43,391 bases of DNA from a virus, in IMG/VR virus record IMGVR_UViG_3300024520_000014, positions 1 through 43,391 of that record. One strand, written 5' to 3'. A program made the position numbers and the translations under genes. Shown here piece after piece: positions 8,202 to 40,608 of the stretch. The stretch's first letter is position 1. Each line of letters starts with the position of its first letter. The notes under the pieces are model-generated. The model saw only the letters and a program-made list of their open reading frames with translations. It did not search any database and had not been told where the DNA came from.

Positions 8202-8462
8202 CTACTCACACTCACATGATAATTCATTCAAAAAACAATCTTCATATGAATATATATATTCATAAACTTCTTCTAATTCAATTCAATATAGCTTTTGTTT
8301 TTTATTTTCGACATAATAGCGTTCTGATCATATATCTAAATCCCAGTAATGGAAATACCAGAAATTTATTCAATCTATAATAATAGGGATCTTAACCCTC
8401 AATGTGTCTTTATTCAGTTTCTGTTTGATGATTTTTCTTTTTTTATCTATGTTTATTTTCAT
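8202..8462 (-). CDS. Hypothetical protein, 86 aa
   Basis: MKINIDKKRKIIKQKLNKDT... then VKIPIIIDGINFWYFHYWDL, an alpha/beta domain with an acidic, Cys-containing end (LSCECE). No family recognised. Confidence 0.7.
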
Positions 8463-8614: not shown

Positions 8615-9862
8615 TTATAAACTAAAATCTGTTTTTTCTTCTTGTATATCAATGTCTTGTAATTCTTTTGATATATCAAACTGCAACTTACTAAAGTCTG
8701 GAATTAATAAGAAAGTTTTATCACTCATTCAATACTTATTCTTTATTAAATTCATTTGTAAGTTCTTTCAATCTCTACTGAGTGCAAATATTACATCACT
8801 AGAGGCAAATATTGCCCCACTACCTTTTGGCTGTATCTTAGAACTATCTTTAAATCTACTATCATTATTAGCCTGTGATATATTAAATATAGTTGTATTA
8901 GTTGTAATTGCTAACTGTTGTAATTCCTGTGCTATCTTTGTCATCTGTTCGTATTCTGAGTTTCATTTTGTTTGTACATTCTGTATGAAATCTATATAAA
9001 CTATATCTGATTTTTCTGATTTTACTATTGCTTTTATTTCTTCTAACTTATAAACATCATCATATATTTTTAAGTTCTGAAAATCTCAAATCTCATAATC
9101 ATATCATTTTATTATTTTTTTCTGATTTATATTATAATATGATTTTAATAGAGAATTAAAGAGCATTTCTTTTTGTACTTCAAGAGAAAACACTAATACT
9201 TTCTTTTCTTTCTTTAAGTTATCTGTTATATATGAATAACTAAAATTACTCTTTCATACTCATGAGTAAGCAACTATTGTATAAACCTTTCATGGTATAA
9301 TTCATCAAGTATATTTATCTATAATAGGGTATGGTGATCAATAACCTAATCCTCATCTATTTTTATAATCATCTAGAAACTTCTCGAAACTATCACATAA
9401 TTCTATTATTGTATTTCCTTTCTTTTGTTTTATTTCTAATCAAGTCTGTAGGTCTCAAATTCTACTATATACATCTTTTATATCTTCATCATATCAAATC
9501 TTTTCTAGCTTTCTTGATTCTAGTATTATCTTTCTTCTATGAGAATGTTCTTTTATAGTTTTATCATAACTTTCCCAGAATATAGAATTTGTACATGATT
9601 CTATAATTTCAATAATATATCATATTCCTCATACTTCTTCTCAAATCTTCTTGGCTGTTATAAAATCCCTGACCATTACTAAGTCAACACATTTTCAAAA
9701 ATCTATAAGACTCTTAATAACTTTAAAAATTATCTTATGCCTATCTAAATAAAAATCTCCCTCATTGATCGTAAGTTTATTATATATTTCATTATCTATA
9801 ATAATTGAACCTAATAATGCTTGCTCTGTTTCTATTGAATATGGCAACTCCTTTGTATACAT
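8615..9862 (-). CDS. dnaB: Replicative DNA helicase DnaB, 415 aa
   Basis: The N-terminal DnaB domain begins PYSIETEQALLGSIIIDNE. The RecA-like ATPase has Walker A AYSGVGKS at about 198-205, Walker B DIVYIDFIQNV near 285-295, the SQANNDSR motif near 328 and the GSGAIFASSDVIFAL sensor region near 347. Both Walker A glycines (201 and 203) are TGA, which fixes TGA as Gly. 19 of 27 Gly codons are TGA. The hexamer unwinds the phage replication fork; the upstream gene is its probable partner. Length is slightly under the usual 440-470. Confidence 0.95.
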
Positions 9863-10474: not shown

Positions 10475-10526
10475 AAAACAGTATCCTAGGGGCTGGTTTG
10501 TATGCGAACCCCTAAAATACTGTTTT
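10475..10526 (-). promoter_or_regulatory. Leader hairpin / putative attenuator before the dnaB operon
   Basis: A 10-bp stem AAAACAGTAT/ATACTGTTTT (10475-10484 with 10517-10526) encloses an AGGGG/CCCCT stem; on the minus strand it ends in five T about 12 nt before the operon start codon region. The loop TCGCATACAAACC is complementary to two upstream leader segments, TGTATGCGA and GGTTTGT (about 10532-10555). This could switch between structures or form a pseudoknot. Confidence 0.7.
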
Positions 10527-11158: not shown

Positions 11159-11271
11159 ATAAAAAATAGGACTTTCCTAAGTTTGCTCTGTAATCGTTCC
11201 TCGCTTTCCTCGTTAAAGGTATTTCTTGGCTTGTTACATTGTGAGACGTTCTTAAGCTTTCCCTATCTTCT
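11158..11271 (-). ncRNA. Putative small RNA B, about 110 nt
   Basis: Promoter TTGACA (11299-11304), 16 bp, TATAAT (11277-11282); terminator TAGGA-aag-TCCTA at 11167-11179 followed by six T on the minus strand. The transcript is richer in G+C than its surroundings, has a CTTT/AAAG hairpin and a duplicated CGAGGAA, and no convincing coding frame. It matches no RNA family I know. Confidence 0.65.
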
Positions 11272-11276
11272 TATAT

Positions 11277-11304
11277 ATTATATTCCTTTTATTAGTTTTG
11301 TCAA
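11277..11304 (-). promoter_or_regulatory. Promoter of small RNA B, consensus TTGACA-16-TATAAT
   Basis: Both hexamers match the sigma-70 consensus exactly, the only such promoter noted here. It suggests strong constitutive transcription of RNA B. Confidence 0.8.
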
Positions 11305-11799: not shown

Positions 11800-12611
11800 A
11801 ACATATACTCTTTATAAAACTTAGTAGTAGTAACTCATCTCTTAGCATACCACATACCTTTATATGCGTGATAATGGTATCTATATATACAAGATAGTAC
11901 TCCATACTCTCAGGCTTCATATCAGTCTGTAAAGTTATGATTCTTCCAGTAGTAACCACATCTTTTACTTTTTCATACTTGTACCTTTCCTTGACTCTTT
12001 TGTCTTTTAGCTAACCATTGTAGCTGACTATCTATATCTTTAGGTATATTCCATTTTCTTAGTGTTTGTACATATCCTTTAGCATATGGATTACTAGCAT
12101 TCTCATCAAAGTTACTCTCAAAGTTTACTATTGCCAGTCTATTAGTTATTTCAAATGGATTAAAGTATTTTAACCATATCTTTATTTGGCTTCTAGGTGG
12201 TAGAGTTATATTGTGATCCCCTCATCTCGTACATTTACTTGCTTCTCTTGTAGTTTTATCTCTATCATTATAACAACCTATAACTGTTTTTTCAGTTGGG
12301 AAGTGAGATAAATAATATCCATATTCACCCATTACATCATAGTTAGCTTTGTTTTTCTCACTTACAGTTACATTGTGTGCCTCTACTGGTATAAGATTCA
12401 TTACAGCTCAAATTAATATGGTTATAGCTATAGTGAGCATAATAGGTTTTGACTTAGTTGTTAATCTATTTACTTTTCTACTTCTCCTTTGTTTTTGTAT
12501 TTGATCCGTTGTTTTCCTATCTGATAGGTTTATAGTATACTTATCTGTTACTAATTTGTCAAAATTCCTCTGACTCAATGCACCATTAAAACCCCTTTTT
12601 ATTCCTTTCAT
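11787..12611 (-). CDS. Membrane-anchored lysozyme/transglycosylase-like protein, 274 aa
   Basis: A basic cytoplasmic N-terminus is followed by one membrane helix at about 57-74 (IMLTIAITILIGAVMNLI). The outside part contains IVNFESNFDENASNPYAKGY at about 161-180: a Glu (E165) before S-N-F-x-x-x-A, then a downstream Q, as in SLT-type lytic transglycosylases. Cysteines at 113, 127 and near 210 could form disulphides. It would cut host peptidoglycan from the outer face of the membrane, as a signal-anchored endolysin. It is separated from the virion genes and has its own leader. Confidence 0.6.
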
Positions 12612-12648
12612 TTTTCCTTTTTTAATAATAAATTTGTTTTTGTTTTTG

Positions 12649-12678
12649 TTTAAACTGGTCGAATTCGACCAGTTTAAA
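12649..12678. repeat. Perfect 30-bp palindrome
   Basis: Two 15-base arms, TTTAAACTGGTCGAA and its exact complement, meet with no spacer. It lies 38 bp before the lysozyme-like ATG, in the transcript leader. No T-run follows on either strand, so it is not a normal terminator. It could be an operator or an RNA hairpin masking an upstream Shine-Dalgarno sequence (12681-12689). Confidence 0.85.
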
Positions 12679-12690
12679 ACCCTCCTTTTA

Positions 12691-12838
12691 ATTAATTATT
12701 GAGTTAATAAATTAATTTTCACATTTTTTAATTAATCGTTTTTCCTTTAAGTATCATAAAAAATATAGTATTTAATAACTTAATTGTTGTGTTAATTAAT
12801 TAATTTTTCACATTATTAATTAATCATTTCCCCTTTAT
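12691..12838 (-). repeat. Tandem imperfect repeat, two units of about 57 bp
   Basis: Units at about 12691-12748 and 12780-12838 share the minus-strand pattern AAGG-(G/A)AAA(C/T)G then ATTAATTAA, AATGTGAAAA and TTAATTAACWCAAYAATTAA. Each contains an AAAGG box and a five to six codon frame beginning ATG-TGA. They may be protein or RNA binding repeats in a leader, or an AT-rich unwinding region. Confidence 0.7.
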
Positions 12839-12939
12839 ATATGATTATTCTGAATCTCCTTTTGATCCTTTTTGTATAATAGTAACTTGCTTCTTAAAAA
12901 ACCTTTCAAATTTTTTGAGTGCAGAATTTCCTCCTTCAT
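12835..12939 (-). CDS. Possible basic peptide, 34 aa
   Basis: ATG at 12937-12939 opens MKEEILHSKNLKGFLRSKLL..., overlapping the 21-aa frame at 12894 in another register. Its own ribosome site is weak, but a strong AAGGAGG lies just inside. Could be noise within a regulatory leader. Confidence 0.35.
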   Translation of the reverse strand: MKEEILHSKNLKGFLRSKLLLYKKDQKEIQNNHI

Positions 12940-12959
12940 AATTCATACATAAATTCCAT
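12894..12959 (-). CDS. Possible leader peptide, 21 aa, with strong Shine-Dalgarno
   Basis: The minus-strand sequence AAAAGGAGG, 8 nt, ATG is a textbook ribosome site, rare in this genome. The frame MEFMYELGRRKFCTQKIGKVF includes two TGA-Gly codons and ends at TAA 12894-12896. It may be a translated leader controlling the downstream lysozyme-like gene. Confidence 0.5.
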
Positions 12960-13021
12960 AACTTATTCCTCCTTTTCATGTAGTTTGGTTAAATAATAAA
13001 ATAATAAGTTGATGTATATAA

Positions 13022-13061: not shown

Positions 13062-13183
13062 AAAAAAACATAGGTTTAAGAAAGTACGAGGCTTTCTACT
13101 ACTCTATGCTTGTGATTTAAGGCTTATAATACAGGCAATACCTGATTTTGCAACTATAAGGTTGAAACTTAAACCCTTAGTTT
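13062..13183 (-). ncRNA. Putative structured RNA D, about 120 nt
   Basis: The ends pair: AAGG(G)TTTAAG at the 5' side with CTTAAACCT at the 3' side, followed by ATG and seven T. Inside are a CTTATA/TATAAG arm topped by CAGG-tattg-CCTG and a hairpin GAAAG-cctcgta-CTTTC. A promoter sits immediately upstream (13185-13211). The multi-arm closed fold with its own promoter and terminator is strong evidence for a functional RNA. It fits no family I can name. Confidence 0.65.
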
Positions 13184-13184
13184 T

Positions 13185-13211
13185 ATTATATTTATTTATC
13201 AATAATTGCAA
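13185..13211 (-). promoter_or_regulatory. Promoter of RNA D, TTGCAA-15-TATAAT
   Basis: TTGCAA at 13206-13211 and TATAAT at 13185-13190; the 15-bp spacing is short. The predicted start falls at the first paired bases of RNA D. Confidence 0.6.
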
Positions 13212-13239
13212 GTTTATATGTATCAACCGTGAGACATAT

Positions 13240-13279
13240 AAAAAAACATGTATCATTTTTTAGTGTTTATGATACATGT
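13240..13279 (-). terminator. Intrinsic terminator
   Basis: An 11-bp stem ACATGTATCAT/ATGATACATGT (13246-13256 with 13269-13279) followed by seven T on the minus strand. It begins at the stop codon of the 26-aa gene. Confidence 0.85.
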
Positions 13280-13359
13280 TATACTTCTCTGAGTCTGTTT
13301 ATACGGCTTATCTTCTCTTTGTAGATTATAACCTTATGGCTCTTTTCCTGTGTTTTCAT
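13279..13359 (-). CDS. Small basic peptide, 26 aa
   Basis: MKTQEKSHKVIIYKEKISRI NRLREV, strongly basic, starts 5 bases after an inverted repeat (13365-13402) and ends in a strong terminator, so it forms a tiny single-gene unit. Function unknown. Confidence 0.5.
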   Translation of the reverse strand: MKTQEKSHKVIIYKEKISRINRLREV

Positions 13360-13364
13360 AATAA

Positions 13365-13402
13365 AAATCTTATATACTAAGTAATATTAGTATATAAGAT
13401 TT
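13365..13402. repeat. 15-bp inverted repeat (operator or AT-rich terminator)
   Basis: AAATCTTATATACTA (13365-13379) and its exact complement (13388-13402) with an 8-base spacer. Minus-strand T-rich flank TTTTTATT follows, so it may terminate the 65-aa gene transcript or serve as an operator over a TATAAT-like site at 13403-13410. Confidence 0.7.
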
Positions 13403-21872: not shown

Positions 21873-22403
21873 CTATATATGTTTAAAAATAAATCATCCT
21901 GCACTTTTTGCAAATCAATTACAAACTCTACCTATTCCTCATGCATTAATCTTTAAATTATCTGAAGCTTCTTTTAAGCTATAGAACATATCTATATACT
22001 TTCAGTTTTTAGTAAATCTTGCTATATTTTTGCTGTTTTGATTATATTTTCCACGAATTCAATAAAAATGATGTTGTTCTCATTTTCTAGATATACATAA
22101 GTTATTATCCCATGCATGTCTTATATTTTCTTTAGGAGTAACATATTCTAAGTTATCAAGGTTATTATTTAATTTGTTTCAATCCTTATGGTTAACTTGT
22201 AATCAATTTGCATTTCATACGAAGGCATCCATTAGTAGTTTATGTATATAATGTATTTTTTGTTTTCCATCAATACTTAGACAAACTCTATTATACCCAT
22301 AACTATTTTTAGAATTTTTTAAGACTCTTCAAGTTTTAATATTTTTTACTTCTCATCATATATTTATTGCATATATTCATTCGTATCAAGATATTCAACG
22401 CAT
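21873..22403 (-). CDS. NUMOD4-HNH-NUMOD1 homing endonuclease 1, 176 aa
   Basis: NUMOD4 start (ISGYEGIYAINIGGEVKN), HNH core (LMDAFVGNANGLQVNHKDGN KLNNNLDNLEYVTPKENIRH) and a C-terminal NUMOD1/IENR1 helix-turn-helix (MFYSLKEASDNLKINAGGI). Free-standing homing endonucleases of this plan cut near their own insertion point and spread between phages. It sits between the capsid and decoration genes. Confidence 0.9.
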
Positions 22404-22918: not shown

Positions 22919-23458
22919 TTAAATTATTTTTGAAAATCTCCATATAAATCATCAAGCAGTTTTTCTTTCTCCCTTACAACATTTTCATATATTTCAATTA
23001 TGAACTCAAGTTTTTTGACTTGCTATTACACAACTATCATATAATCAAATTAATGTATTAGTTAGTGAGAATTGTTTTACTGATTTACTAGAAGGGTTTT
23101 CTTTTCAGTACTTTCAATAAGCACTTCATTTATGTCCCAATACATCAAATCTGTGTTTTTGATTTTCAGCATTAGTACAATATTCTAAGTTTTCAAGTCT
23201 ATTGTCATCTTTAATTCAATTTTTGTGATTAACTTGCTTGTCTGACTTTCAAATAAACGTTAATAACATAAGTCTATGAACCTTACATAAATGTCTTTTT
23301 TTAAGATTTAGACCGATATGTAAATATCAATAGTTGTCTTTACTTTGTTTAAGTATCCTTATCTTTCAATATTTTAGACTAATGATAACACTAGATTTGT
23401 TGATTTTATATATTCATTCAAATCAAGGTATATCTTTAAATTCATTAATATTATCCAT
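22919..23458 (-). CDS. NUMOD4-HNH-NUMOD1 homing endonuclease 2, 179 aa
   Basis: NUMOD4-like start (DIPGFEGIYKINKSSVIISL), HNH core (KQVNHKNGIKDDNRLENLEY CTNAENQKHR) and an IENR1-type end (SQKTGVHNGNIGKCCKGERK). It is related to but not a copy of the enzyme at 21873. Together they look like two independent invasions on either side of the decoration gene. Confidence 0.9.
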
Positions 23459-25260: not shown

Positions 25261-25355
25261 TAAAAAAAGCAGTCTATAATCAACTGCTTAAATAGTAATA
25301 ACGTTCACCCACTACAGGAACTTTATTACTATTTAAGTAATTGATTAGTGGGTTT
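25261..25355 (-). promoter_or_regulatory. Structured leader with 15-bp stem, loop-leader pairing and terminator
   Basis: A perfect 15-bp stem (25287-25301 with 25323-25337) encloses a loop holding TAGTGGGT (about 25304-25311), which is complementary to ACCCACTA just upstream in the leader (25346-25353); together they can form a pseudoknot. A second hairpin GCAGT/ACTGC (25269-25273, 25283-25287) followed by seven T is an intrinsic terminator. The element lies between the promoter at 25377-25404 and the scaffold-like gene, so it may control head gene expression. Confidence 0.75.
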
Positions 25356-25376
25356 GTATTGCAAAGAACTATATAT

Positions 25377-25768: not shown

Positions 25769-27742
25769 TTAAATTTTAGGAGTATTAACACTTGCTACTT
25801 CAGGAACTTGTCAGTCAGGGCTTACCTCAGCTCATTTCTCTTCTTCTGATACTAAATTCTGAGATTGGTCAGGTGCTATATCAGGAGCTCTCGTTCCTTT
25901 CATCATTGTTTGCAATTCCTTGTATAGTTCTTTCTTTTCTTCTTGTACTTCCATATCATCTGATTGTTCTATATCTATATTATTCAGCTTAGCTAAATCC
26001 ATTATGGCTTTCTTCTTAGGAATTATTTGTGCTAGTTCAGGATCAGAATTATACGCATTTGTTAATCATGCTATTCCATTATAAAATTCCATTCTTTGTG
26101 CTTTTTCTACTTCTGTTATAGTAGGAGCATTAAGATCAGTTGATACCTCTATTTTAACGTCTCATCTTATAGATTCTGGAGTTACCTCGAATATTTGTTT
26201 TTCATTTGTTTTCATAAACCTTTTCCCTTTCATTTTTGGTACTTCTATCGTAGGGTATTCTTTTTCTATTTTTCATACTTTCTCTCATTTAGCATCCTTT
26301 CATTCTATTTCCTTATTATTATCATCTATATTTACTAATTTTCTTACAAGCTTAAGAGGATAAAACATTTGTAAATTATCTTTATGCTGATTCGCTAACT
26401 CTTCAAAGGCTTCATCTCTATTCTTTAAAACTACATTTACTCTTTGTAAAGAGCTTTCTTTTTGTACTGCTGTTTGATATGCTGTTTGTTGAGGTTCTCA
26501 TATTATATTCATTATATCAATACCACAAAAGATAGCCACTTCCTTAAATAACTCTTGAAGTCTTGTGAATATAGCTTGGTTCGGTGGAGTACCACTTAAT
26601 TGTTGGAAATTTCATTGTAAATTTCCTTTAAATTTCATAAATTGATTATTGTACGCGAACTGGTTTCAATCAAAACTTAAACCTCATCAAAGAGCAATAA
26701 CCTCTTGATTCGATCTCTTTATTGCTTCCATTAACATTTCTCTGAGCTTGTTTATATCTGATTTGAAGGTAACAAGTATCTCACATAATCATTTCCCATA
26801 TATAGAGAAAGGATTTTTACCGTATTGTCTTACTACGAAAGGTAAACAATGAGAAGCATTTAATATAGGATGTGATTTTAGCAGAACACTATCATTCGCC
26901 ACTTCCCGGTACATATCAAGTTTAGTATTCCAGTATTTAGTCATTTTTACATATTTACTCTCTCATTCTCATCTTTCTTCTTGTACAATAAAAGGTCTAT
27001 TAGAATTGTATCTTGATTGGGTAGGAATAATAGCATTAAGTTTTTCTTTATCATAACTATTATCAAGAGAGTAATCTAAAAACTCCTCATAAGTTAAATA
27101 AGTTTCATAAATACAGTCTACTGCATCTTTCATTTTCTTTGCTCTCTCATCTACATAAAAATCTCTTATATCAATATTCTTTAATAAGATATCTCATTTA
27201 GTTTGTAGCTTTCTTTTGAATTTAATTTTACCGTCATCATCTTCTCCGTCAAAATCAGAAATAACTCTATATGATCTCTCATATCATGTGAATATTATAG
27301 AGGTTCAGAATATAGCCGTTAAATACTCATTATTAAGTATCTCAGAGTCTCTATTATTTACTCCCCAGTCATGTTTCCATACTTTTTCTAATATCCTTTC
27401 TTGATAATCAAATCATACAGCCCCAGTAAAATTGAAATTAGTTGGTCTCTTTATAGCTTCTGATACAAATAACTCTATGATAGACCTTTCTAGTGGTACA
27501 TTAGATGAAGCTCTACCATCTGTATAGGGTACAAATATAGCCTCAAATTGCTTAATAAATTGTTTCCAATATTTGTCTACAACTGTTCTTTTTTGTAGCA
27601 TCTTATTCTTCCTGTCCTTGATGAATCAAATGATTTTTTCATCTTCTTCTGAGCTTTTATAATTCTTTACTACAGGTTCTTGAATCTCTTTGAGAGTTTC
27701 TGAAGTTAGTTTTGTATCTTTACTATTATTCTCTACAAGCAT
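25769..27742 (-). CDS. Portal protein, 657 aa
   Basis: Size, place (after terminase) and sequence fit a podovirus-type portal: FIKQFEAIFVPYTDGRASSN VPLERSIIELF, VRQYGKNPFSIYGKGLCEIL, then the long helical stem SDINKLREMLMEAIKRSNQE and NIIGEPQQTAYQTAVQKESS, where Q-T-A-x-x-A is a common portal feature. The C-terminus is acidic and Pro-rich. The dodecameric ring forms the DNA channel and binds terminase. Translation starts 35 nt after an AACCCACTA leader motif. Confidence 0.85.
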
Positions 27743-29733: not shown

Positions 29734-30084
29734 AATTTAATTAGTTATATATTAAAATCATACTTGTAATTATTATTTGCAGAGCAAGAGCAAGTGAGAG
29801 AGTGAGTAAACTGTAGTAAATAATATCCCCCCCTATATACTATTAACTACATAAACTACTTAGTCACTACCACTCAGAGATATACTCTTAGAGTTCATTT
29901 ACTTTAAGTAAAATGTCTCTTATCAAACTCATAAACATTTGCGTCTGCTGTCGCTTCGCTTCGTATCGTTCGGTTATGCTACTGGGATATTTTAAACCTC
30001 TTGGGAAGTACATTATCCGAGCTATAATCTAAGTAAACATAACTATACTTAGAACTCTAGACTGTTAATTCAATAAACTTTATA

Positions 30085-30168
30085 GAAAAAAACCTTACTA
30101 TTCGTAGTAGTAAGGGTAAACTCAGTAGTTCGAGTTGCCTCGTACTACGAATACGAGTTTAATTTGTA
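30085..30168 (-). ncRNA. Putative kissing-loop small RNA E, about 85 nt
   Basis: Two hairpins: CTCGTA/TACGAG with loop TTCGTAG (30139-30157) and CCTTACTA/TAGTAAGG with loop CTACGAA (30093-30115), the second followed by seven T as terminator. The two 7-base loops are exact complements, so they can kiss. Promoter TTGCAA-16-TAGTAT lies just upstream (30174-30201). No coding frame. Strong evidence for a functional RNA of unknown role. Confidence 0.75.
30093..30115 (-). terminator. Terminator of RNA E
   Basis: 8-bp stem and seven T on the minus strand; also one half of the kissing-loop pair. Confidence 0.8.
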
Positions 30169-30173
30169 CTTAA

Positions 30174-30201
30174 ATACTATAGATAAAATGAGGAATTGCA
30201 A
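30174..30201 (-). promoter_or_regulatory. Promoter of RNA E, TTGCAA-16-TAGTAT
   Basis: TTGCAA at 30196-30201 and TAGTAT at 30174-30179. Confidence 0.65.
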
Positions 30202-30298
30202 ATCTTTTTTATACTTTTTTCATTACCTCTATAAAGCTATTGTATATATAAAAGGTATAATATTACCTATGAATACCAGTAAAAGTATAGTCGATTAT

Positions 30299-30356
30299 TT
30301 GCATTAATTGAAATGAAGTGATACTATTAGTGTACAGTTTATTTATTAACCCACTA
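30299..30356 (+). promoter_or_regulatory. Plus-strand promoter TTGCAT-17-TACTAT with AACCCACTA motif
   Basis: TTGCAT at 30299-30304, TACTAT at 30322-30327, and the leader motif AACCCACTA at 30348-30356, three bases before the first ATG. It is the only clear plus-strand promoter. Confidence 0.65.
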
Positions 30357-30359
30357 CAA

Positions 30360-30458
30360 ATGAATAAATATGAGAAGTATTATATTATGTTATTTATAGC
30401 TGTTCTGTTAGTAGCGTTGTACTTCGTTGTATGACCAGATTATTTAAGTTTTATGTAA
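30360..30458 (+). CDS. Tiny membrane protein, 32 aa, plus strand
   Basis: MNKYEKYYIMLFIAVLLVAL YFVVGPDYLSFM: a short polar start and one membrane helix; the Gly in VVGP is TGA. One of only two genes on this strand, after a dedicated promoter. Size and hydrophobicity would suit a holin, antiholin or membrane peptide; not diagnostic. Confidence 0.65.
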
Positions 30459-30499
30459 GAGTGAGAAAGAGGAGAATTTTAATATTTAATTATAAGATT

Positions 30500-30652
30500 A
30501 TGGAAATAGTTATTTGAGTTGTTATATTTATTATAATAGTTGTTATATTTGAAAATATAATGAGAATAGAAAAAAGAGTAGGAAGATTAGAAGATAAATT
30601 TTATAATCAAGAAAACCCAGAGTGGCATAAAGGTATTAAATGAAAAAAATAG
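30500..30652 (+). CDS. Small membrane protein, 50 aa, plus strand
   Basis: One N-terminal helix (MEIVIGVVIFIIIVVIFENI) then a charged tail (MRIEKRVGRLEDKFYNQENP). This N-in anchor with charged tail is the plan of Rz1-less spanin or holin-type lysis proteins and of small phage membrane proteins. A G-rich sequence, AAAGAGGAG, precedes the start by about 30 bases. It ends before a shared terminator. Confidence 0.65.
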
Positions 30653-30664
30653 AAAGACTAGAGA

Positions 30665-30694
30665 AGAAAAAAAGACTTTAATTAGTCTTTTTTT
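30665..30694. terminator. Bidirectional terminator between convergent genes
   Basis: Stem AAAGACT/AGTCTTT (30671-30677 with 30684-30690) flanked by A-run and T-run, so it works for both the plus-strand unit and the minus-strand 1033-aa gene, whose stop is at 30693. Confidence 0.85.
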
Positions 30695-36637: not shown

Positions 36638-38341
36638 TTATATTAGATCTTTCAATAAGTTAATAGATTTATTTGCAGCACCTCAAGTAGTTCAAGTTCC
36701 TCAAGCAGTTCAACCAGCTCAATCAACTCAAGCAGTTCAACCAGCTCATCAAGCTCAACCAGCTCATCAATTTACTTGAAATGTTCAAGAAAAAGTGTTA
36801 GTTCAAAATATTGCTATTATTCACCCTCATCCTCACCCTGCACCTCACCCTCACCCTCACCCTCAACCATGTGACCCTATAGGAGCTGAATTTCAACCAG
36901 CTCATCAAGCTCAACCAGCTCATCAATCCATTATAAATTTTCAAGTTCCTGTTATATTTTTTGCGTATATTAATATTAAAGGACTTTTTCAAATATCTCA
37001 CCCTGCACCTCAACCTCATCCTCAATTTCAACTACTTGATCATTCGTCTCAATCAGCTCAAATATTTCAGTAAGCATTTCAACCAGTTCATCAAGATCAT
37101 CAAGTTCATCCTCAATCCACTCATCCTCATCCTCAACCTGCTGATACTCAACCTGCTCATCCAGCAGCATCAGATCATCAAGTTCATCAAGTTCAAGCAG
37201 GAGTTCATCAAGCTCAACCAGCTCATCAAGAGTAAGTAGAAGAAGAAGAAGCACCTCACCCTCAACCTCAACCATATCAAGATGCTCATACTCAACCAGC
37301 TCATCAAGCATTTGTATTAGTTCAACCAGCTCATCAAGCTCAACCAGCTCAAATAGCAGAAAAAGCAATAGTTAATCAATATATATTTGAAATACTTGCA
37401 TTTGAATCAATACCTGTTATATCAATATCTCAATTTAATGTTAGTGTCCCATTTACCTTAATAGTCATTTGTCCAGATGTTCATGCCGTAGAAAGTACGG
37501 CTCAAACATCTATTTGAAGATTATGATAGTTAAAAACTGTATCTAGTGCTATATTAGTTGTTCATGAAGCAATGGTAACATCTCAGTCACTACCATCTCA
37601 GAATATAGAAGCAGGAACAAAATTACTATAATATCAATATGAATTTAATATAGCTATCTTATTTTCATCTCAACTTCAACTACTTGTCTTTACTAAGTTA
37701 GCAACAGCAACTACATTTCTTGCCCCTGTTCAACCTGTTGCTGTAGCTGTTCATTGTTCCGCAACTGTTCACTCTTCAAATTTTCATGCCACCGTTGTAC
37801 TACCATTAGGAGTAGTTGTACCAGTATCTACACTTTCCCATTGAGCAGTTCATGTATTATAATTATAAAAAACAGATCATGCCTGTATTCAAGTATATGC
37901 TATTGTTGGTACTCAATCACCTCATAATGCAGAATCTCTTGCTGCTGTTGAAGCATATATTGTAGAAGCTACTCATTTTTCAGTTATAACGGCTTCTTCA
38001 AATGTATTATTTCATACAAGAGTATTATCTTTTAATTTATTAAGTAATTGATCGTGCATTGAAACTAATACCCCTTTATTCGAAGCTCACCAAGTTTTAC
38101 CTGTTCATGCAGTTGCTGGGTCTGCTGTTTGACTTAATCACCTTGTTAATCAAGTGTAATCAAAATAACTCCCATTTGCTGAGACTCAGGTAAATGAAAT
38201 CCATTCTTCCTGATTATCATTAACGAAATAAAATCTACCTATTGTAACTCATACATCTATATCTGCTGTAAGTGTTGTTGCTGCTGCTGTTAGTTTTGCT
38301 GTAAGTGAGACAGTCTTTCAACTGGAAAATGTTATTGACAT
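36638..38341 (-). CDS. Polyglycine tail adhesin, 567 aa
   Basis: Residues 1-320 form a fibre domain (WISFTGVSANGSYFDYTGLT ... TTVAGKFEEGTVAEQ). From about residue 325 to 553 the protein is built of GGAGGAGG, GGGGGG and GGTGG blocks, like the polyglycine-II tip of gp38-type adhesins of T-even phages. Most of these glycines are TGA, often strictly alternating TGA-GGN. Read with TGA as stop or Trp the gene is nonsense. Short hypervariable-looking loops between Gly blocks would contact the receptor. Confidence 0.8.
36650..37368 (-). repeat. Low-complexity TGA-GGN and TGATGAGCTGGT repeats within the adhesin gene
   Basis: The 12-base unit TGATGAGCTGGT recurs many times, and pure hexamer TGAGGN runs occur near 36825-36870 and 37000-37020 and 37115-37265. 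Such repeats can expand or contract by slippage and so alter the receptor-binding tip. Confidence 0.85.
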
Positions 38342-40150: not shown

Positions 40151-40608
40151 TATTTAATAGTTATTCAAACCTTTTCGAGTTCTTCTTTAAATAAAATACC
40201 TAGCTCTAAATCTATCTCTTTACCATAATGTACTATTAAAGGGTTTAGATAAAATGTATGTCATACTTTCTTTAATACTCAATGTTCTTTATAAACTCTT
40301 ATAAGTCTAATAAAACTACTATCACTAAATAGTATCTTCTCTTTAAATAAATTCACATCAATAGAATTATCATCTCTAGAATAATCAGGGATAGATAATA
40401 GGTATGTTCAATATTTTCATAAGTTCTTTGCCAAGATATTCTTATAATCAGACAATCATATTATTGTTTTCATAAATGTTTTGTAGGGGTTTATAATATA
40501 TTTATGTTTTGTATTATCATGTGTTCTTATATAGTCTCTTAAAGCTCACTCTCAATAATCTTTTTCAAAGTCTTTTAAATTAATATTTACTTTCTCGTAT
40601 TTCTGCAT
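40150..40608 (-). CDS. Possible RepL/winged-helix-type replication or regulatory protein, 152 aa
   Basis: The C-terminal half, LIRVYKEHGVLKKVGHTFYL NPLIVHYGKEIDLELG, resembles the wing and 'Y-x-L-N-P' segment of RepL-type plasmid/phage initiators and the winged-helix domain of related regulators. The operator-like repeats at 40694-40722 lie just upstream, as expected for an autoregulated DNA-binding protein. Not certain; other wHTH families share this pattern. Confidence 0.5.

Follow-up and report, generated by a model that had tools for sequence, protein, structure and literature searches.

We define "the window" as the whole 43,391-nt stretch of viral DNA that was analysed (IMG/VR record IMGVR_UViG_3300024520_000014). 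On its minus strand, at 13062-13178, lies a predicted transcription unit made up of a promoter, a short RNA and an intrinsic terminator (Table 1). The unit sits in an 831-nt gap between genes W_34 and W_31 that holds no gene of known family. Three strong terminators fall within this gap, two of which are upstream of the unit and part it from W_34. No ORF of known family lies directly past the T-run at 13062; the ATG of the first plausible ORF is about 83 nt away, and W_31 about 450 nt. The unit is overlapped by a 50-aa minus-strand ORF (13104-13256) and by plus-strand ORFs of up to 84 aa. A small ORF after the unit was considered as an S21-like protein and rejected, having no Pfam match.

Table 1. 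Features of the minus-strand RNA unit and of the adjoining intergenic DNA (window coordinates)
Feature	Position	Strand	Details
Upstream terminator hairpin 1	13366..13402	-	after promoter TTTACA-16-TATAAT at 13430-13403
Upstream terminator hairpin 2	13240..13280	-	isolates the 13062-13178 unit from upstream transcription
-35-like element CTTGCA/TTGCAA	13206..13212	-	15-16 nt from the -10; from sequence; 5/6 matches in unbiased scans
-10 element TATAAT	13185..13190	-	from sequence; unbiased scans
Predicted 117-nt RNA	13062..13178	-	start +/- 3 nt; from promoter position and terminator
GGTTTAAG, 5' end of the RNA	13168..13175	-	8-nt exact complement of 13073-13080
5' domain	13119..13177	-	closing stem AGGGTTTA/TAAGCCTT, arms CAAC(cttata)GTTG and CAGGT(att)GCCTG; alternative long arm GGTTTAAG/CTTAAATC
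Intrinsic terminator	13062..13111	-	outer stem AAGCATAG/CTATGTTT, inner hairpin GAAAG(cctcgta)CTTTC, T7 at 13068-13062
CTTAAACC, terminator interior between inner hairpin and outer stem	13073..13080	-	partner of GGTTTAAG

Genetic code and relatives of the phage

Almost no long ORFs are found in the window under the standard code, and reading TGA as a sense codon yields long minus-strand genes. The 12 long minus-strand ORFs carry 379 in-frame TGA codons and not a single TAA or TAG. TGA occupies glycine positions. Read as glycine, it yields a GVGKS Walker A motif in DnaB, and in some of the phages it encodes glycines that are conserved in the capsid protein; the tail-type protein at 36638-38341 likewise turns glycine-rich. 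These three properties, the number of in-frame TGA codons, the lack of TAA and TAG and the glycine positions, are the grounds on which code 25 (UGA = Gly) was assigned to the window; code 4 (TGA = Trp) was dropped because TGA stands at glycine positions. Phages with dense in-frame TGA have Gracilibacteria and Absconditabacteria as predicted hosts (PMC10746230), and code 25 makes Absconditabacteria or Gracilibacteria the likely hosts of the window phage as well. In the literature searched, no non-coding RNA was found for phages infecting UGA=Gly bacteria.

Relatives are few: G002 (L003, 45 kb), G004 (L005, 41 kb), G007 (L025, 16 kb), small fragments and L037. In L037, in-frame TGA coincides with glycine positions and the terminase is 49% identical; this contig was binned in a MAG labelled Candidatus Dependentiae, where it is probably misplaced. 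Two genes of the HNH/NUMOD4 homing-endonuclease type (21873-22403 and 22919-23458, minus strand) lie within the capsid module of the window.

Shine-Dalgarno motifs are mostly absent from these phages (0/48 genes in G002, 0/46 in G004 and 4/40 in the window phage), though several AGGAGG-like motifs occur past the 13062-13178 unit, at 12610-12990 on the minus strand. The same stretch holds two repeats of about 45 nt around AATGTGAAAA, and a perfect palindrome, TTTAAACTGGTCGAATTCGACCAGTTTAAA, is found at about 12648-12677.

Promoter and terminator of the 13062-13178 unit

The T-run reported in an earlier note on this DNA is present behind the terminator hairpin; at the end of the 13062-13183 stretch it is confined to the minus strand, on which the phage genes are encoded. 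A plus-strand reading of that stretch (z = -1.7) was rejected, as the T-run and promoter are on the opposite strand. The same note had placed a promoter so that the RNA would begin with its terminal stem, and this agrees with the minus-strand TATAAT and -35-like element, whose predicted +1 at about 13178 is where the closing stem begins. GATTTGCA and TTGACA elements, similar to the CTTGCA/TTGCAA sequence of this unit, stand before other cassettes.

A simple promoter scan of 10 kb yielded no excess of promoter-like sites (78 vs 79 expected), indicating that weak promoter matches are uninformative here. A strict, unbiased scan, applied to the intergenic DNA of four related phages, did discriminate; in it, TATAAT had to be accompanied by a -35 element matching at 5/6 positions or more and, for a complete unit, followed by a terminator of -12 kcal/mol or better. 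The coding strand contained 15 such promoters, compared to 2.4 in shuffles, and five units with both a strong promoter and a strong terminator, compared to 0.01. The antisense strand contained 6 promoters and no complete unit. The 13062-13178 unit is one of the five. Its terminator has a pair probability of about 1 over most of its length and folds beyond shuffles (z = -3.4, p = 0.003); when the 831-nt gap was shuffled 300 times, no terminator of this strength arose.

Both the promoter and the terminator of the unit are statistically supported, and from them we infer its transcription. The idea of a phage-encoded RNA unit gains from the excess of complete units over shuffled sequence and from the occurrence of similar cassettes in the window phage and its relatives, and 13062-13178 has the look of a genuine small-RNA gene, equipped with both a promoter and a terminator; the phage seems to contain several of them. 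A host-type RNA polymerase would start about 7 nt past TATAAT on the minus strand and make a transcript of roughly 117 nt that ends at the intrinsic terminator. The reading we favour, with a probability of roughly 0.55, is that of a stand-alone short terminated RNA encoded on the minus strand of a code-25 phage. Such an RNA would most likely act in trans, by base-pairing with phage or host transcripts during infection.

The oop RNA of lambda is a phage small RNA that starts at a promoter of its own and ends at an intrinsic terminator. Like such RNAs (phage sRNAs are reviewed in PMC12197685), the unit is short and intergenic, has a promoter of its own and a terminator hairpin with a T-run, and carries no ORF so far assigned to a known family; unlike them, it belongs to a code-25 phage, is a predicted unit, has no sequence or family relation to them, and has a 5' end complementary to the interior of its terminator.

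The three strong terminators within 831 nt also fit another view of the locus, as a boundary zone between the structural/lysis and replication modules in which only the tandem terminators and start sites are functional and the RNA is a by-product that lacks any structure or function of its own. The lambda 6S RNA, ending at tR', is a terminated leader. As in lambda, a promoter is followed by a terminator within about 120 nt near a module border; the 13062-13178 unit differs in having neither a known antiterminator nor a gene immediately downstream. A by-product would agree with the chance-level folding of the 5' domain (p = 0.14, see below) and with the fact that no conservation was found, but the 8-nt complementarity between the two ends of the RNA (p = 0.002-0.03), which recurs in sister cassettes, speaks against it, and we consider it unlikely.

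Fold of the RNA and complementarity of its ends

The 117-nt transcript has a minimum free energy of -25.1 kcal/mol and beats about 97% of shuffles (z = -2.3, p = 0.03). For the 122-nt stretch at 13062-13183 (minus strand) the z-score is -2.5, with 5 of 200 shuffles equally good. This folding signal stems from the terminator and not from the 5' arms: the 5' domain, with its terminal stem and two arms, is within chance (z = -1.1, p = 0.14). The closing stem AGGGTTTA/TAAGCCTT has a probability of about 0.54, versus about 0.42 for the rival arm GGTTTAAG/CTTAAATC, and the two 5' folds are only 0.2 kcal/mol apart at the likely start. Transcripts starting at 13181 to 13178 fold best into the closing stem and two arms followed by the terminator, the long arm wins for starts at 13177 to 13174, and another 5' hairpin is best for starts at 13182 or earlier.

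The earlier description of a multi-arm structured RNA, with a terminal stem and two arms, therefore stands only in part. The whole RNA departs weakly from shuffles, its terminator does so clearly, and the stem with two arms is the best fold for starts from 13181 to 13178; the 5' arms are within chance and compete with an equally stable alternative. A new phage RNA class, as the note had suggested, would go beyond the evidence for this RNA, given the competing folds, the chance-level arms and the lack of any homologue found.

No homologue of the 13062-13178 RNA was detected by DNA similarity among INPHARED phages or the related contigs. Scans of IMG/VR with a 22-mer and a 22-base pattern gave no match either; the IMG/VR scans (three patterns) were exact-pattern scans, which miss diverged copies. 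The 17-mer GAAAGCCTCGTACTTTC matches L035 and L036, unrelated contigs of 45-56% GC, and this was attributed to chance. A match at 9231 of G007 was discarded as a homologue because it has only a promoter in common with the unit.

No Rfam family reaches its gathering score in the window, the matches from a relaxed Rfam search of the region are all sub-threshold and outside the RNA, and neither ARAGORN nor Rfam found a tRNA or tmRNA. No feature shared with an Rfam family emerged from these searches. These results leave the suggested mimic of a host RNA without support as far as described families are concerned. Although intergenic genes for tRNA-Ala and tRNA-Glu are present in the relative G004, nothing direct speaks for an RNA that imitates or is related to a known host RNA (tRNA, tmRNA, 6S, RNase P or a CRISPR repeat), and we judge this origin highly improbable.

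Cassettes of these phages can be grouped by an exact complementarity of at least 7 nt that links the terminator interior to the ~15 nt at the start of the transcript; the present RNA belongs to this group through the 8-nt match of GGTTTAAG with CTTAAACC. The probability of the GGTTTAAG/CTTAAACC match is 0.015 when the entire upstream part serves as reference, 0.002 when only the first 14 nt do and 0.02-0.03 under other nulls. A search for kissing between the apical loop CCTCGTA and an upstream segment of the same RNA found only a 3-nt match (p = 0.97). The end bases of CTTAAACC are common with the terminator stems, and because of these shared bases the GGTTTAAG/CTTAAACC pairing has a probability near 0 in the plain fold. 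The complementary ends suggest that GGTTTAAG has two possible partners, one of them local, in the 5' domain, and the other CTTAAACC, in the terminator hairpin. The latter pairing would create a pseudoknot tying both RNA ends, and it would leave no base of the 3' strand CTTTC-TTAAACC-TATGTTT unpaired. A paired 5' end, together with the terminator at the 3' end, may protect the RNA from nucleases.

In pT181/pIP501-type attenuators and the ZTP riboswitch, sequence upstream of the terminator either pairs into it or competes with it. The 13062-13178 RNA shares with them an upstream segment complementary to the terminator and alternative folds; it differs in that this segment lies at the extreme 5' end of the transcript, neither a ligand nor an antisense RNA is known, and the downstream gene is not adjacent. 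As an attenuator-type leader, the transcript would normally stop at the terminator. Capture of CTTAAACC by GGTTTAAG would break up the terminator and allow read-through into W_31, a membrane/lysis-type gene (12611-11787), and into small ORFs at 12979-12845. Consistent with such a switch, CTTAAACC is contested by GGTTTAAG and the terminator stems, and other cassettes finish no more than about 30 nt from a start codon (at 10477 before W_26, 4877 before W_14 and 11698 before W_30, at 26966 and 40336 in G002 and at 8364 in G004). Unlike those cassettes, however, the present unit has no adjacent gene, its nearest plausible ATG and W_31 lying at the distances given above, and neither W_31 nor the short downstream peptide that was tested matches a Pfam family. 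Moreover, prefix folding gives a local 5' stem before the terminator is made, so that capture of CTTAAACC would need refolding. An attenuator at this site is a less likely reading, and the stand-alone terminated RNA is preferred.

Similar cassettes in these phages

The cassettes tested individually were chosen by eye. A scan of all cassettes, made without such choice, for a hairpin with a match of at least 7 nt to the first 16 nt found 6 cassettes, compared to 0.24 in shuffles. Five of 23 promoter-terminator pairs with a hairpin have p-values of 0.05 or less (about 1.2 expected). In this count, pairs with a common terminator depend on each other, and the pair at 14606-14447, among the five, probably falls within a coding region. 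Complementarity between the 5' end and the terminator recurs in the window at 10553-10472 and 4957-4872 and in G002 at 40246-40345; several cassettes are without it.

The window 4957-4872 and G002 40246-40345 (L018:1246-1345) cassettes are homologous, with a common terminator stem AAGAATTTTTAAGG...CCTTGA(A/G)AGTTCTTTT, and lead different genes, W_14 and the HNH/NUMOD4-type G002_64. Each has two further helices that join upstream sequence to the terminator loop (GCAAAAAC/GTTTTTGC and TATATAG/CTATATA in the window, ACTACAAC/GTTGTAGT and TTTACAT/ATGTAAA in G002), which were read from the sequences, the first helix of each being the one tested statistically. Both extra helices differ in sequence between the two phages and occupy the same places, a conservation that rests on two homologous sequences. 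The order is up1, up2, stem, loop1, loop2, stem (ABCABC). This pair is the strongest candidate for a new pseudoknotted terminator. The leader of the DUF6291 gene W_26 (10553-10472, minus strand) follows the same plan with GTATGCG/CGCATAC and TGGTTTG/CAAACCA: the loop CGCATACAAACCA of its long terminator hairpin (-25.6 kcal/mol) matches both upstream segments. Another promoter-RNA-terminator unit occurs upstream of this leader, at 10699-10595.

At the corresponding module border of G002, between a lysis-type gene and DUF6291-DnaB, there are two promoter-RNA-terminator units (26515-26975; L017:6515-6975), the first about 220 nt and the second about 140 nt long. In the latter (z = -5.3), an inner hairpin has an 8-nt match to the terminator loop, GGGAGTCT/AGACTCCC (p = 0.005).

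We tentatively propose that UGA=Gly phages carry small leader RNAs whose first nucleotides pair into their own terminator loop, with crossing ABCABC-type pseudoknots in the best cases, and that these represent a new conditional terminator or an end-locked sRNA, of which the 13062-13178 RNA would be a simpler member. If the end-to-terminator pairing is real, these phages would have a small RNA element, amenable to testing, that serves as a switch or for protection ahead of DUF6291, endonuclease and other genes. Its topology would then involve three mutually crossing helices, an arrangement that to our knowledge has rarely been reported.

Other intergenic sites were noted in the course of the analysis. 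Upstream of the terminase gene region, 959 nt (29734-30692, minus strand) are without long minus-strand genes; this stretch is absent from G002, which has 10 nt there, and contains a GC-richer part with GAAGCGAAGCGACAGCAGACGC. A promoter-RNA-terminator unit upstream of the terminase gene (30086-30190, minus strand; z = -5.4) has a TTCGTAG complementary to its terminator loop CTACGAA. The RNA at 30150-30088 contains a 10-nt exact complement to the 13062-13178 RNA, AGTACGAGGC (p = 0.08), which may be chance; a 9-nt complement exists between the 13062-13178 RNA and 11757-11690. At 11160-11290 (minus strand) a TTGACA/TATAAT promoter precedes a 103-nt RNA (z = -3.1) closed by GATAGGG/TCCTAT, followed by a T-run and a second promoter ahead of W_28.

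An intergenic site in the capsid module has a long hairpin in all four phages (window 25262-25375, minus strand; L016:12222-12346; L020:15195-15313; L030:9245-9381), with widely different sequences. A TAGACCYCTATGGA-like box is conserved where the following gene has its start codon. The loop is complementary to an upstream segment in three of the four (ACCCACTA/TAGTGGGT, CCCCCAC/GTGGGGG and TTCTTT/AAAGAA), the first of these alone beating chance singly. In G004, the leader at 8230-8370 (L019) has crossing helices CATAGTG/CACTATG and TCTATCC/GGATAGA; its CCAACTTAG is complementary to the terminator arm CTAAGTTGG, and its T-run adjoins the ATG of G004_18.
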